From assembly GCA_012840385.1 (NCBI GenBank), contig DULK01000049.1, positions 1-46,765 of the forward strand: a DNA stretch of 46,765 nt, read 5' to 3'. The notes under the pieces were generated by a model. It was not told the DNA's origin, did no database searches, and worked only from the letters and a program-made list of their open reading frames with translations. This DNA is from Syntrophomonadaceae bacterium (lineage in GTDB: Bacteria; Bacillota; DSM-12270; Thermacetogeniales; Thermacetogeniaceae). A program made the position numbers and the translations under genes. How positions within the stretch are numbered: position 1 is the stretch's first letter; each line of letters starts with the position of its first letter. Positions 10,911-46,765 of the stretch are shown piece by piece.

Positions 10911-12257
10911 TCATTCTTCCTCCAGGCATCGCTGGACAAAATGGGTATCTACCGAGCCGGTTACGAAATATGGGTTTTCCATGATGCTCAGCAAAAAAGG
11001 TATCGTCGTTTCCACACCTTCTATCCGGAACTCCCTCAGGGCCCGCTTCATTCGCTCGATGACCTCGTGGCGATTCTTTCCCCAGGTGATCAACTTCGCG
11101 ATGAGGGAATCATAGTAGGGTGGTATGCTATAGCCCGGGTAAATCCCGCTGTCGACCCGCACTCCGAATCCGCCGGGGGGCAGGTAGTTTTTTATAACAC
11201 CCGGACACGGCCGGAAGTTGAAATTGGTATCTTCGGCATTGATGCGGCACTCCAGGGCCACACCATTGGGCTTGATGTCCTCCTGCTTGAAACCCAAGGG
11301 TTCTCCCGCCGCAATTTTAATCATCTCCGCCACAAGGTCGATTCCGGTGACCATTTCGGTTACCGGGTGTTCCACCTGAATCCGGGTGTTCATTTCGATA
11401 AAATAATAGTTTCCCAACCTGTCGAGCAAGAACTCAACAGTACCCGCTCCCACATAATTTACGGCCTGTGCCGCCCGTACGGCGGTAGCCCCCATTTCTT
11501 CCCTCAACTGTTGGGTCAGTACAGGACAGGGTGTTTCCTCGATCAACTTCTGATGCCTGCGCTGAATGGAACAATCCCGTTCTCCCAGGTAAACCGCATT
11601 TCCGAACTTGTCTGCCAGTATCTGTATTTCCACATGCCTGGGTTCGAGCAGGTACTTTTCAAGATATATCCCGCCGTCTCCGAAAGCGGCTTCTGCCTCA
11701 GCCCGGGCTGTCCGGACGGATCTTTCCAGTTCCTCGCTGTTTAAGGCAATCCGCATCCCGCGGCCTCCCCCTCCTGCAGAGGCCTTGATGATGACAGGAT
11801 ACCCGATGGCTTCGGCAATTTCCGCGATTTCCCGTTCCCTGGTTAGAAGCCCCGGAGAGCCCGGCACAACAGGAACCCCTGCCTTAATCATCAACTCGCG
11901 GGCACGAGCCTTCGCACCCATGTCCTCGATCGCCGAAGCGGGAGGGCCGATGAATGTTATTTTCTGTCTTTCGCAGATCTCAGCAAAGTACGGGTTCTCG
12001 GCAAGAAAGCCGTAACCAGGATGAATCGCCTCCGCACCCTTCATCTCCGCTGCGCTGATGATGTTTGGAATATTTAAATAGCTCCGACCCGGCGGGGGAG
12101 CCCCGATACAAACCGCTTCGTCAGCCATCTTTACATGCAGTGCTTCGCGATCCGCTTCGGAGTATACGGCGACGGTCTTTATTCCCATCTCCCGGCAGGT
12201 GCGAATAATCCTGACCGCAATTTCACCCCGGTTAGCCACGAGAATCTTTTTGAACAC
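10911..12257 (-). CDS. accC: Biotin carboxylase subunit (AccC/PycA type)
   Basis: ATP-dependent carboxylation of carrier-bound biotin. The 448 residues show the ATP-grasp fold: N-terminal [19 protein letters not shown], the glycine-rich loop [13 protein letters not shown] near 160-172, [12 protein letters not shown] near 230-240, and [15 protein letters not shown] near 288-302. The start is GTG at 12255-12257 after GAGGAGG. It follows a carboxyltransferase-AccB fusion in the same direction, so the most likely partner reaction is pyruvate carboxylation rather than acetyl-CoA carboxylation; no accA or accD is seen. A terminator-like hairpin lies between the two genes. Confidence 0.93.
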
Positions 12258-42772: not shown

Positions 42773-43702
42773 CTATCCTCCGGTTGAAATAACCCTGCCC
42801 GACCATTTGCTGCCCTGACGACTGTCCCGCCGATCGAGTTCTTTTTCGATAGCACCGATCACCTGCGCCTTGCCGACATTCCAGCGGGGTGCAATAAGAT
42901 AACTGGAATCCAGCACATCACCCATTAAACGATGAATGACAAGATCCGAACGCAGGTGTTCTAAAAAATCACAGACCAAGCCGACATACTCCATAAAGGT
43001 TAATGTCTTGACCTCTCCACGGCGATACATCTCTGCCAACGGTGTGTTTTCGATAACCTGAAGGTGGTGAATTTTTACTCCTTGAATCCCTTGCGAACTC
43101 AAGAAGACCGCCGTCTCCAGCATATCTTCCCGCGATTCTCCGGGCAGCCCCAGGATCACGTGTGCACAGAGGAGGATGCCCCTCCCCTGGCAGCGGGCAA
43201 CCGTATCCTCAAAATCATCCCGCCTGTGCCCACGGTTGATCAGATCGAGAGTACGATCATGGGCCGACTGGAGTCCCAACTCAAGCCATATGTGCCAGCG
43301 GCCTGCATACTCCTCCAACAGATCCAGCACCTCGTCCGGGACACAGTCAGGCCTGGTAGCAATGCACAATCCCACCACATCAGGTTCTTTCAGCGCCTGA
43401 TCGTAAAGAGATCGGAGCTTTTTAACAGGAGCATAGGTATTGGTGAAAGGCTGAAAATAGACCAGGTATTTGTTGCCCTCTTTTTGTTTTATCCTGGTCT
43501 TACCCTTGGTTATCTGTTCGTGCAAAGATGCCGGTTCGCTTTCTGCAACAGCGCTGAAACTGGGGTTCCAACAATAGATACAGCCTCTTCTGCCGATGTT
43601 GCCGTCCCGGTTAGGGCAGGTGAACCCGGCATGAACCGGAATCTTATGAACGCGGCATCCAAATCTTTGGCGAAAATAAGTGCTTAAAGCGAAATAACGC
43701 AT
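42773..43702 (-). CDS. Radical SAM protein, YtqA/TIGR01212 family
   Basis: 309 residues. The cluster motif is C29-x11-C41-x2-C44 (CPNRDGNIGRRGCIYC), the spacing of TIGR01212/YhcC-like proteins, which resemble the N-terminal part of Elp3. Further segments: FQPFTNTYAPVKKL, GLCIATRPDCVPDEVLDLL, WLELGLQSAHDRTLDLINRGH, HVILGLPGESREDMLET. Substrate unknown. It has its own promoter candidate at 43771-43799. Confidence 0.9.
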   Translation of the reverse strand: MRYFALSTYFRQRFGCRVHKIPVHAGFTCPNRDGNIGRRGCIYCWNPSFSAVAESEPASLHEQITKGKTRIKQKEGNKYLVYFQPFTNTYAPVKKLRSLYDQALKEPDVVGLCIATRPDCVPDEVLDLLEEYAGRWHIWLELGLQSAHDRTLDLINRGHRRDDFEDTVARCQGRGILLCAHVILGLPGESREDMLETAVFLSSQGIQGVKIHHLQVIENTPLAEMYRRGEVKTLTFMEYVGLVCDFLEHLRSDLVIHRLMGDVLDSSYLIAPRWNVGKAQVIGAIEKELDRRDSRQGSKWSGRVISTGG

Positions 43703-43991: not shown

Positions 43992-44016
43992 AGACAAGAG
44001 AACCGTCCCCTTGTCT
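43992..44016. repeat. Imperfect inverted repeat at the sigK stop
   Basis: AGACAAG (43992-43998) and CTTGTCT (44010-44016) enclose AGAACCGTCCC. It overlaps the sigK stop at 44015-44017. Short palindromes of this character (GAACCGTCCCC core) recur in some Clostridia genomes, so this may be one copy of a dispersed repeat; only one copy is seen here. Confidence 0.5.
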
Positions 44017-44563
44017 ATCCTTCTGACAACTCTTTTAGGAGCTTTTTTATCGCTCGTTTTTCAATTCGTGATACGTAGCTTCGCGATATACCCAGGTAAC
44101 GAGCTATCTCCCGCTGTGTTCGTTTTAGACTGCCAAACAAACCATACCTGAGCTCCAGAACCTTGCGTTCCCGTTTATTGAGTTTCTTGACCTTTTCCAG
44201 CAAACGCCGCTCTTCAAAAAAATTTTCCACCATTTCGGAAATAGCCTCGGGACCGGTTCCCAGCACATCCATCAGGGTGATTTCGTTCCCTTCTTTGTCC
44301 GTGCCGATCGGATCATAAAGGGAAACTTCACTCCTATTCTTTTTAGATGCCCTGAGGAACATCAGGATTTCATTTTCAATACAGCGCGCTGCATATGTTG
44401 CCAGTTTAGTCCCCTTATCCATGTTAAAGGTGTTAATCGCTTTTATTAAGCCGATTGTGCCAATGGAAATTAAATCATCCGGGTCTTCCCTTGTTGCGTC
44501 AAATTTTTTGATGTTGTGGACTCGAAACAATGTTATTAGAAACCCCTTCATTCCTGTATTCAA
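44015..44563 (-). CDS. sigK: RNA polymerase sigma-K factor, 3' part of an interrupted gene
   Basis: Late mother-cell sporulation sigma factor. Homology to SigK begins at KKFDATREDPDDL (about 44509, perhaps from His at 44518) and runs to the stop: DLISIGTIGLIKAINTFN (region 2), KGTKLATYAARCIENEILM, DPIGTDKEGNEITLMDVLG, and a region 4 helix-turn-helix REIARYLGISRSYVSRIEKRA. The DKEGNE segment distinguishes SigK from SigE. Residues before KKFD come from the recombinase reading region, not from sigK; the open frame starts only because an ATG lies there. The N-terminal half (about 68 residues) is absent and should lie beyond the window, at the far end of an inserted element. On its own this fragment cannot make a sigma factor. 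Confidence 0.88.
   Translation of the reverse strand: MNTGMKGFLITLFRVHNIKKFDATREDPDDLISIGTIGLIKAINTFNMDKGTKLATYAARCIENEILMFLRASKKNRSEVSLYDPIGTDKEGNEITLMDVLGTGPEAISEMVENFFEERRLLEKVKKLNKRERKVLELRYGLFGSLKRTQREIARYLGISRSYVSRIEKRAIKKLLKELSEG
44499..44520 (-). other. Probable recombination junction (att site) in sigK
   Basis: Sequence CACAACATCAAAAAATTTGA on the minus strand is at once the last codons and TGA stop of the recombinase and the start of sigK homology (HxxKKFD). The crossover between element and sigK must lie here. Core bases cannot be fixed without the other end. Confidence 0.6.
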
Positions 44564-46148
44564 TCAATTTCTTCTTCAAGAGTTCGTCAAGAATCCCCAT
44601 GTAGGTCAGAATGACTTCTTCACCTTGAAATTCAACAATTATCTCACTAACGAGCATTTCAATAATGTTACGTTTTTCCCTGAACAAGAGAGCCTTTTTA
44701 TCTTCTTCCTCGCTCTCGATACCATGCTTTATGGTATTTATCAATCGATTTACTATATCTATGCTCCTGAGGTTTCTCCTCCTGGCGTTCAATAAGTTTT
44801 TGTATTTCTTTGCCTCGGCTTGAAGGCGTTCGATCTCCTGGTTTACTCTCGCCACATCGCTTCTCATTTCGTCCTCTGAGATGGTTTCTAGGACGAACAT
44901 CCTCTTGATCTTCTCTTTTTCTTTTTCCTTGACTTCTATTTGCTTATCAACCGCGTCCAGGGTCTTTCTGAGCGCTGCGGCAGCTGCATCCCCCTGTTTC
45001 TGGGCCGCCTTCAAAAACAATTCCGGGTTTAGAACCAGTTCTTTGATCTGATTCCATACATACCCATCAAGCATATCGGCCCTTATCGTTCTGGTGTCAC
45101 AGCCCCCGACTTCCTTACTTCCGAACTTTCTGGGATATTTATTGTTGCACCTGTAAACAGGATAGGTTTTTCCGTGGTCGCCGGGGTATGTGGTGCTAAC
45201 CCACGCATGCCCGCACTTACCGCATTTCAGCAGAGATCTGAGAAGATAGTCGTGCCTGATATGCCCGGAAAGGATCTTCCGGTTTCTGATCTTCTGTTGT
45301 TGAGCCATTTCAAAGAGCGCCTCATCAATAATGGCCGGAACCTCAACCTCGATCCATTCCGAACGGTCCCGGTACTCGTATTTTCTTCTCGGTTTTCCTC
45401 CCGCAGTTTTTTCACCTTTGAGCTTATGAAACCTTCGCCTGTTGTAATAATATCTCCCGACGTAAATTTCCGATGTGAGGATTCTCCTGATTGAGCTTGC
45501 ATTCCAGTACTTGTTTTCCCCTCGCTTGGGATAGCAGCCGAGCGCACACAATTTTTCACCGATCTGTCTCATGGTAAGCCGGTCGAAAACGTACCAGTTA
45601 TAGATCATCTTAACAAACTCTGCTTCTCTTTCGTTTATTACAAGTCGGCCGTCGGTCAGATCGTATCCGAAGGGAGGTACTCTCATGGGCATTACTTTTT
45701 GTTTTTTTCTTACCGTATCCAACCTCCCCCTTATGGTACGCTTCTTAATCTGGGAAAGTTCATATTGAGCGATGACCGATTGCATGTTGAAAAACAGCTG
45801 CCCTTCGGGTGTGTTTCGGTATTCTGTATCGACGAAAACCAATCGGACGCCATGTTTTTCGAACTCCCTGCAAACAATCAGTTTATCCGTAAGGTCTCTG
45901 CTCAGGCGATCAGGGTGCGTGCATATAACATGCGTTATAAAACCGAGGGACACATCGGTTCTCAGCCGGTTCATTGTCGGCCTGTCGATATCCTCCCCGG
46001 TCATTCCCTCTTCTTTATATATTTTTACCTCGTCTTTTGTAAACCCGAGTTCAAAAGCTTTTTTCAGGCAAAGTTCGATCTGTCCATCCAGGCTTGTACC
46101 TTCAGTAACCTGAAGTCCGGTCGAGACTCTTGCATATATCGCTATCAT
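44499..46148 (-). CDS. Large serine recombinase, SpoIVCA-like (excises sigK element)
   Basis: 549 residues. The resolvase domain (1-145) has catalytic Ser9 in YARVST, and THPDRLSRDLTD. Then the recombinase domain (about 155-260, PPFGYDL, WNASSIRRILTSEIYVGRYYYNRRR), a zinc ribbon (CGKCGHAW...CNNKY...CDTRT, about 315-360) and a coiled coil (about 395-465). This is the layout of B. subtilis SpoIVCA and of other skin recombinases. Its 3' end overlaps the sigK junction and it is read in the same direction as sigK. Expected role: excise the intervening element in the mother cell so that sigK is rebuilt. Confidence 0.92.
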   Translation of the reverse strand: MIAIYARVSTGLQVTEGTSLDGQIELCLKKAFELGFTKDEVKIYKEEGMTGEDIDRPTMNRLRTDVSLGFITHVICTHPDRLSRDLTDKLIVCREFEKHGVRLVFVDTEYRNTPEGQLFFNMQSVIAQYELSQIKKRTIRGRLDTVRKKQKVMPMRVPPFGYDLTDGRLVINEREAEFVKMIYNWYVFDRLTMRQIGEKLCALGCYPKRGENKYWNASSIRRILTSEIYVGRYYYNRRRFHKLKGEKTAGGKPRRKYEYRDRSEWIEVEVPAIIDEALFEMAQQQKIRNRKILSGHIRHDYLLRSLLKCGKCGHAWVSTTYPGDHGKTYPVYRCNNKYPRKFGSKEVGGCDTRTIRADMLDGYVWNQIKELVLNPELFLKAAQKQGDAAAAALRKTLDAVDKQIEVKEKEKEKIKRMFVLETISEDEMRSDVARVNQEIERLQAEAKKYKNLLNARRRNLRSIDIVNRLINTIKHGIESEEEDKKALLFREKRNIIEMLVSEIIVEFQGEEVILTYMGILDELLKKKLIEYRNEGVSNNIVSSPQHQKI

Positions 46149-46230
46149 CTTACTTCAGCGCTCCTTTGCCTTTCTCTTTGTCTCTGCCTTTTACTAGAAT
46201 GGGCTGGGCACCGCAACCGATGACAACGCA
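46149..46230. other. Leader upstream of recombinase
   Basis: 82 bases with no coding frame and no clear promoter; a sporulation-specific promoter for the recombinase is expected here or further upstream but cannot be recognised with confidence. Confidence 0.35.
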
Positions 46231-46440
46231 TTAGTTCGATATTAACGTATCTTTTCGTTGCCGTTTTGGCAAATACTGCCTGGTCATGCAGTTCTGCATC
46301 AAGATCTGAGCAACCTTCCCAACCGCTTCAAGAACCCGGTCACCAAGCCCTTGAAAATCCTTGAGAGCTTCTTCTAATTCTTCAGGAGTCATTTTTTCAT
46401 ACCTGTTGCAAATCTTTAACTTCTTCAATCCATCTCCCAC
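46231..46440 (-). CDS. Small hypothetical protein of the sigK element
   Basis: 69 codons: GDGLKKLKICNRYEKMTPEELEEALKDFQGLGDRVLEAVGKVAQIL, a helical acidic N-terminal part and a basic C-terminal tail (RQYLPKRQRK). No family recognised. The listed start is GTG at 46440; a TTG four codons in, after GGGAG, is an alternative. It could be a regulator or directionality factor of the recombinase (speculative). Confidence 0.45.
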   Translation of the reverse strand: MGDGLKKLKICNRYEKMTPEELEEALKDFQGLGDRVLEAVGKVAQILMQNCMTRQYLPKRQRKDTLISN

Positions 46441-46452
46441 CTCATTAAAAAG

Positions 46453-46487
46453 GTATTTTACCCCCCGCTTGTCTTAAGACAGGTAAA
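46453..46487. repeat. Inverted repeat between intron and small ORF
   Basis: Outer arms ATTTTACC (about 46455-46462) and GGTAAAAT (about 46482-46489) flank a perfect inner TGTCTTAAGACA palindrome; a C-rich stretch makes the pairing asymmetric. Could be a regulatory site of the recombinase leader or the target hairpin next to which the intron inserted. Confidence 0.45.
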
Positions 46488-46497
46488 ATATTCCCCA

Positions 46498-46765
46498 AAC
46501 GAGTAGGAGAAGCAGCCAGCCCCTTCTTCTCACACCATCGCACGTACCGTTCTTCGGTACACGGGAGTTCACCAAGTTTGACGGGGACTGATAGCATTCG
46601 GTTCAACTCATGAGGCTCTAAACTTCCCAGTAGACCATCACGCCGCCTCCGGCGGCACCAACAGAGTATGAAAATACCCGACGGGTCTACCGGCGAGCGA
46701 CCTATGGAAGGCCGGGTAACAGGACAGGCGAAGCGAGGATGACAGGTCGGGATGCGAGTACAGAC
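46498..46765 (-). mobile_element. Group II intron, 3' end (partial; domains V and VI)
   Basis: On the minus strand, a domain V-like hairpin (about 46536-46568; GUGUACCG AAGAA CGGUACGUGC pairing) is followed by GATGGTGTGAGA and a domain VI-like stem ending CCTACTCG at about 46500. This succession is the standard 3' end of many bacterial group II introns. Domain III/IV-like stems (GCCGCC / GGCGGC near 46650) precede it. The 5' part, any reverse transcriptase gene and the 5' splice site lie outside the window. The intron sits inside the putative sigK element, about 350 bases upstream of the recombinase. Confidence 0.78.

Follow-up and report, generated by a model that had tools for sequence, protein, structure and literature searches.

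Split sigK genes in a Syntrophomonadaceae bacterium and its relatives: a putative skin-type element at codon 68 and recombinases at three sites

A divided sigK at the end of a contig

The window analysed here is a whole contig (C37, 46,765 bases) from the draft genome of a Syntrophomonadaceae bacterium (G000; 2.70 Mb, 105 contigs, 98.8% complete), and it holds, near its end, the 3' part of sigK, the gene for sigma-K, next to a large serine recombinase that very probably belongs to an element of the skin type, inserted at codon 68 and removed by excision during development. A preliminary description of this DNA had stated that sigK begins abruptly at KKFD, that a large serine recombinase lies upstream in the same direction and that a stop codon falls inside the junction. 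We found that all three hold and that its coordinates are correct, the element itself extending past the window. The minus-strand bases 44018-44509 code for KKFD to the end of the protein (stop codon 44015-44017), and the open reading frame (ORF) that contains them scores 262.2 bits with the SigK model (TIGR02846, cut-off 298.65 bits; a sigK is called intact here when its match lies above this value). The recombinase carries the Resolvase, Recombinase and Zn_ribbon_recom domains, and its TGA (44499-44501) overlaps the sigK codons TTT GAC. The stop codon of the recombinase is in this sense borrowed from sigK, so its frame must end differently on an excised circle. Residues R7, S9, R81 and R84, which we take to be the catalytic residues of large serine recombinases, do not vary among the five recombinases that were aligned. 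Relatives of the window enzyme are 92%, 82%, 53% and 50% identical to it, the 82% one being the copy of a sister genome (G002, Clostridia bacterium isolate 27, contig CADDZA010000005).

The 5' part of sigK is found in the same genome on contig C92 (7,781 bases; locus L050, 7377-7582, minus strand). It starts with a TTG codon preceded by GGAGGGG and reads ...RLVAHI|INTISS, leaving sigK after RLVAHI, and the bases CATCAA are common to the 5' and 3' sides of the gene. An in-frame join at this core gives an unbroken SigK of 232 aa that scores 354.4 bits, versus 262.2 for the 3' part alone, and the joined protein of the sister reaches 360.2. This gain, together with the recurrence of the same junction in other species, argues that the junction is not a product of chance. 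The preliminary description had expected a minus-strand 5' half, with a similar ending and the same core bases, beyond position 46765; strand, ending and core were as foreseen and the place was not, since the window is all of C37 and nothing lies past that position on the contig. Its concern that the N-terminal half might be absent, or that a second intact sigK might lie elsewhere, did not materialise: no match in G000 lies above the TIGR02846 cut-off, and the best full-length one, on contig C69, was identified as SigE (419.9 bits versus a cut-off of 348.6) and has SigG and SpoIIGA as neighbours. In a control, the same search in Bacillus subtilis gives matches but none above cut-off, as expected of a split gene. 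SpoIIID is also present in G000 (138.9 bits, cut-off 111.5), and a SigF-like match on contig C5 falls slightly below its family cut-off (307.4 versus 321.45 bits). Since no intact sigK was found in G000, sporulation should need excision, and the cells probably have to rejoin sigK to finish making spores.

In G002 the sigK 5' part, an element of 4,384 bases and the sigK 3' part stand on one contig, with a 12-base shared core, ACATATCATCAA, at the junctions, and both parts of the gene directly flank one element. For G000, where an assembly gap intervenes, the same arrangement is reached through synteny. In the second sister (G001, CADDZD, isolate 25) the match to window positions 44508-46633 abuts, base to base, the match to C92 512-5201 (locus L091 on contig C80, 8751/8752). 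This abutment, with which G002 agrees, indicates that C37 and C92 carry one element with an insertion between them that the assembly leaves unresolved; over both contigs it measures ~9.6 kb. The cargo on C92 and in G002 includes a DNA methyltransferase, a periplasmic binding protein, a zinc-ribbon protein, a xylose-isomerase-like TIM barrel and an arginase-like protein, the periplasmic binding and zinc-ribbon matches being below cut-off. No phage gene was recognised among five cargo proteins scanned, part of the element being unassembled, and prophage-like gene content, a trait of the B. subtilis and Clostridium tetani elements that is not required (gin-type elements do without it), was not seen. 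The methyltransferase of the window genome is of type II (L050 5380-7047, 626.9 bits); in G001 (L163 2-2464) an ORF convergent to the methyltransferase might be a nuclease partner.

We compared G000 with G002 by the ratio of replacement to silent change (dN/dS). The sigK 5' part has nine silent and no replacement changes (dN/dS 0), the 3' part a ratio of 0.057 and the recombinase one of 0.14; mnmL and yqeG in the host flank have 0.19 and 0.06. The 69-aa ORF ahead of the recombinase (Table 1) has 0.22 in this pair and 0.59 and 0.18 in the other two pairs, and matches nothing in Pfam or PHROG. Shared arms and cargo place the insertion of the element before the split of G000 and G002. The host genes 3' of sigK belong to the MnmL/YtqA and YqeG families.

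Table 1. Features around the sigK junction in the window, with one candidate target in a site-B element (site B as defined in the text)
Feature	Position	Strand	Remarks
sigK 3' part, codon 68 (KKFD...) to stop	44015..44509	-	SigK model matches, TIGR02846 positions 62-226
Shared core CATCAA, attR crossover region	44508..44513	-	The 5' part on C92 finishes with an identical hexamer
Large serine recombinase, 549 aa	44499..46148	-	Pfam PF00239, PF07508, PF13408
69-aa ORF directly 5' of the recombinase, candidate recombination directionality factor	46231..46440	-	Conserved in both sister species
SpoIIID-like box TAAGACAAGC, 5' of the 69-aa ORF	46467..46476	-	Same ten bases in G000 and both sisters
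Element interior	46477..46633	-	Homologous DNA runs straight into C92 in a sister (G001 alignment)
Contig end, insertion within the element unresolved by the assembly	46634..46765	.	35-base stretch 46632-46666 repeated near the C92 end
tRNA-modification radical SAM protein MnmL/YtqA, host flank downstream of sigK	42773..43702	-	TIGR01212, 377 bits; same neighbour in G002
TAGGACAATC region	site-B element		Candidate SpoIIID target

Three sites in sigK and the recombinases beside them

Split sigK is the normal state in this class. Among its 20 genomes in our collection, all of one family, 15 have a split gene and four a SigK above cut-off (G003, G009, G014, G015); in G010 (84% complete) neither intact nor split sigK was found. 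Of 299 genomes drawn evenly from the phylum (each at least 90% complete), 214 have a SigK match above cut-off. The splits lie at three places, which we call site A (sigK codon ~68), site B (~117) and site C (~145): G000 and G002 are split at A, 11 genomes at B, G004 at C, and G001 at both A and B. Outside the class, G022, G158 and G034 hold an intact sigK plus one extra part, at site A or B (model positions 62-226 in G022 and 6-116 in G034).

Minimal site-B elements of 1,778-1,796 bases, with a recombinase of 502-544 aa, are present in six genomes of the class (G007, G008, G016-G019). The idea that these consist of the recombinase alone was dropped, as a small ORF overlaps the recombinase gene, ending ~25 nt inside it, in 10 of the 12 site-B elements examined. 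Nine such ORFs were trimmed to 52-58 aa, and their alignment shows the core GG.G....A...L..K.L. The small ORF of G001 ends just ahead of the recombinase start; in G018 the overlap scan gave none, probably because the recombinase start was chosen too far upstream, and a 53-aa ORF is listed there.

The recombinases were labelled by the sigK site that they adjoin (one site-B sequence, L105, sits 1.1 kb from its piece) and placed in a tree of 67 sequences, eight duplicate loci and sequences shorter than 400 aa having been excluded beforehand. All 22 site-A sequences fall in one clade of 37 (support 100/99) that holds no site-B or site-C member, and the four site-C sequences form one clade (100/100). 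The 16 site-B sequences require two changes on the tree, which carries a long-branch warning at two joins. Lineages A and B are only ~30% identical.

The site-A recombinase was followed in 34 genome loci, and in 20 of them its end adjoins a sigK piece at codon ~68. In six, an intact sigK lies 0.4-1 kb downstream; in one (L117) the distance to the sigK 3' part is 1.4 kb, and a similar arm is present; in another (L122) the 5' part lies 0.5 kb downstream. The remaining six have no sigK in the locus: L102 and L113 end at the contig end at the attachment (att) site, the gene is broken in L132 and L134, an attP-form junction is present in L111, and L133 (Paenibacillus cookii), which continues into unrelated DNA, is a genuine exception. 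In this last locus (11600-11700) an intact C-side arm is followed by AAGAAATTGTATGATTC in place of sigK, which may be a secondary site or a rearranged sigK. Two of 14 viral-contig loci adjoin sigK. Junctions at codon 68 are also present in further genera, including one on a closed chromosome. Compared at the best of 13 offsets, the element ends form inverted repeats of 20-21 of 22 bases in five pairs, four from Paenibacillus and one from Brevibacillus, and of 20 of 22 at the L111 junction; the repeats are weaker in two other Paenibacillus pairs (14-15 of 22), in Anoxybacillus sediminis (13) and in a Heliobacteriaceae metagenome-assembled genome (12). The recombinases found in Brevibacillus panacihumi and Paenibacillus sp. 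P25 share 98.3% of their bases, whereas their sigK 3' parts are 71.3% identical, which argues that the element moves between genera and finds the same codon; in four of the five between-genera recombinase pairs compared, 97-98% of bases are identical.

Two further arrangements were seen in Paenibacillus. In P. naphthalenovorans (L111; L172: G310 contig C70, 1643-1672, minus strand) a second recombinase is followed immediately by GTGTTCACAACCTCAACACGTTGTGAACAC, in which both arms of a site-A element are joined. The reading of this junction as an excised circle was not upheld as the sole one, because the contig has no terminal overlap and a tandem junction fits equally well. Other genomes combine an intact sigK with extra 5' or 3' parts: L165, L166 (G041), L094, L167 (G217), L130, L161, L162 (G316). 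The extra parts whose ends were inspected carry site-A element arms, and in G041 seven partial copies lie within ~90 kb after the intact gene. Either whole sigK genes are carried by elements, or serial insertions have restored the gene.

Several records hold sigK in three or more pieces. On the closed chromosome of A. sediminis PCH 117 (NZ_CP064048.1) three ordered minus-strand pieces (2492347-2492556, 2485559-2485732 and 2482464-2482811) are separated by elements of 6,650 and 2,771 bases; a site-A recombinase precedes the middle piece and a site-B recombinase follows it. This genome has no SigK match above cut-off, and the joined protein scores 371 bits. P. naphthalenovorans PR-N1 has pieces covering model positions 4-68, 62-144 and 139-227 (sites A and C; 364.7 bits when joined), no site-C recombinase being seen on its short flanks. 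In G227 the pieces cover 13-67, 60-116 and 109-226 (sites A and B), and a serine recombinase precedes each of the last two. In G001 the 5' part bears the A junction, and a site-B recombinase stands at the 3' part; a middle piece is absent among the matches listed for this genome (down to about E 6e-11). In viral-contig record L138, recombinase A, sigK 66-146 and recombinase C stand in series. Two records imply a gene in four pieces: IMGVR_UViG_2615840722_000003, with recombinase A, sigK 66-118, recombinase B, sigK 115-147 and recombinase C in series, and Bacilli bacterium RYN_352, with pieces 62-129, 109-144 and 138-227; the outer pieces of the former and the 5' piece of the latter were not found. 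Beside recombinase C of the former record lies an IetA/IetS-like defence pair, an ATPase and a subtilisin-like protease (L137 12161-15585). A 66-kb element in sigK of Paenibacillus sediminis encodes, within L116 1-9900, three BrxC/BrxD-domain proteins and a BrxHI/SngC-like helicase, with two tyrosine integrases near the element end; judged by these genes, it is a probable defence island riding in sigK.

Candidate control signals and competing explanations

A SpoIIID-like ten-base box was found at most 300 bases 5' of the recombinase in 12 of 16 site-B, 14 of 22 site-A, 2 of 4 site-C and 8 of 24 other sequences, against 13.1% of 19,963 random windows; related sequences among these are not independent, and a literature search for the letters of the consensus gave nothing. 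Members of both lineage A and lineage B repeatedly show the form TAGGACAA or TAAGACAA, which in the genus of the window stands at -308 to -329. Such boxes ahead of two recombinase lineages suggest sporulation control. A sigma-E pattern matches 5 of 16 site-B promoters versus 0.19% of random windows; it was built from these sequences after they had been viewed and is therefore not an independent test. The small upstream ORFs have no Pfam match and two weak PHROGs matches of unknown function (E 0.0075 and 0.004). Their grouping as one family of recombination directionality factors was dropped, as profile comparisons across elements were empty (probabilities 2.5%, 1.3% and 0.3%).

We propose that in the mother cell, late in sporulation, sigma-E and SpoIIID would switch on the small ORF and the recombinase, which would then excise the element as a circle and rejoin sigK. 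Sigma-K would be made as a pro-protein, and the spore would keep the split gene because the mother cell dies. Three attachment sites with one recombinase lineage each could let elements stack, leaving sigK in at least three pieces.

That sigK is split by a skin-like element with its own serine recombinase, as the preliminary description proposed, is well supported by two gene parts that can be joined in frame at a short core and by an element that encodes such an enzyme; mother-cell excision is the step that we still deduce. Several observations weigh against a developmentally excised element. Excision is a prediction from sequence, and the two sigK parts come from separate contigs of a single draft assembly. 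For G000 and G002, where no N arm was located, inverted repeats as strong as 20-21 of 22 bases were not found. The window box lies 328 bases upstream, outside the 300-base limit within which G002 likewise has none, and the 69-aa ORF is unlike the small ORFs of other elements (hhalign probability at most 2.5%). Furthermore, dS between G000 and G002 is 0.71 for the recombinase, more than the 0.26 and 0.36 of the host flanks, which may reflect an exchange of the recombinase module.

A possible though clearly less probable alternative, compatible with developmental excision, is an ordinary mobile element that uses sigK as its integration site, leaves it for transfer, and has sigK rejoined incidentally or by other means. 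The movement of nearly identical recombinases between genera fits this, as do the defence-type genes carried and the intact sigK beside the recombinase in six of 34 loci. It fits less well with the SpoIIID-like boxes ahead of two recombinase lineages, which suggest sporulation control, or with a genome in which no intact sigK was found. We consider it improbable that the element is a dead remnant, stuck in a sigK whose function is lost in an organism that no longer completes sporulation, an outcome that the preliminary description had also raised. A predicted rather than observed excision, a draft of 105 contigs and a SigF-like match short of its cut-off would be compatible with such decay. 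Both sigK parts have nevertheless remained strongly constrained while split, which makes a remnant unlikely; the element is older than the G000/G002 split, its recombinase is intact and constrained, and SpoIIID, SigE, SigG and SpoIIGA are all present. Finally, a misjoin that hides an intact sigK, which two parts on two contigs with a common 35-base repeat at their ends might suggest, is very hard to reconcile with the same junctions on one contig in G002 and with codon-68 junctions in other genera, one on a closed chromosome.

Relation to known elements and meaning

The skin element of B. subtilis (recombinase SpoIVCA, directionality factor Skr), like the one described here, splits sigK and carries a large serine recombinase; its site, presumably close to codon 117, would correspond to site B, whereas the window site is codon 68. 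In our reading, the SigK N-terminus encoded by the window genome looks like a pro-sequence, which would be a further likeness to B. subtilis. In B. subtilis, Skr is encoded by a small ORF 5' of and overlapping spoIVCA, with a sigma-E promoter more than 200 bases upstream (PMC6957869), and SpoIIID activates spoIVCA and the sigK 5' part (PMC517825). The site-B elements share this layout, with a small ORF overlapping the recombinase start. The B. subtilis skin is 48 kb long and prophage-like (PMC517825), unlike the window element with its scanned cargo. The skinCd element of Clostridioides difficile (recombinase CD1231, directionality factor CD1234) also splits sigK and has a serine recombinase, in a different sigK region from the B. 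subtilis element (PMC6957869). Its directionality factor is under sigma-E and SpoIIID; in contrast to the above, sigma-K of C. difficile lacks a pro-sequence and the recombinase is not mother-cell specific (PMC5025042).

Serine-recombinase elements in sigK are also described for Alicyclobacillus phage MMB025, C. tetani prophages and Clostridium perfringens phiS63 (PMC13141910, PMC5553647). These differ in being prophages or infectious phages, described with one insertion per gene. The MMB025 integrase is the top-listed phage match for one site-A (36% identity) and one site-B recombinase (40%). The gin element of Bacillus cereus gerE is similar in being non-phage, in interrupting a mother-cell gene that is restored in sporulation and in involving several recombinases (PMC5595907); it has three of them in one gerE element, whereas here several elements lie in one gene. 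Elements in sigK, with their recombinases and directionality factors, are thus already known, and so is the use of differing sigK regions by B. subtilis and C. difficile (PMC6957869). In the literature searched, mostly outside subscription journals, we found no report of several elements in one sigK, of a class-wide split or of sigK elements below 2 kb. The novelty of the latter is the weakest point, since PMC6957869 refers to small intervening elements shown in one of its supplementary figures.

Programmed rearrangement in spore-formers is usually told as one insertion per gene. Here, a split runs through a class (15 of 20 genomes), three sites are occupied by separate recombinase clades, and one gene stands in three pieces on a closed chromosome. 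We lean, with reserve, towards an exon-like sigK with three independent sites, each with its own recombinase lineage and small ORF; in those species where two or three elements occupy the gene together, two or three separate SpoIIID-gated excisions in the mother cell would assemble one sigma factor. The split would be normal in this class, and some genera would have reduced their elements to cassettes that can hold hardly anything beyond the recombinase and a single small ORF. The 1.78-1.80-kb elements are natural minimal cassettes for asking what skin elements need and why hosts keep them, and the recurrent SpoIIID-like box allows a direct test of whether the sporulation programme has captured such elements convergently.

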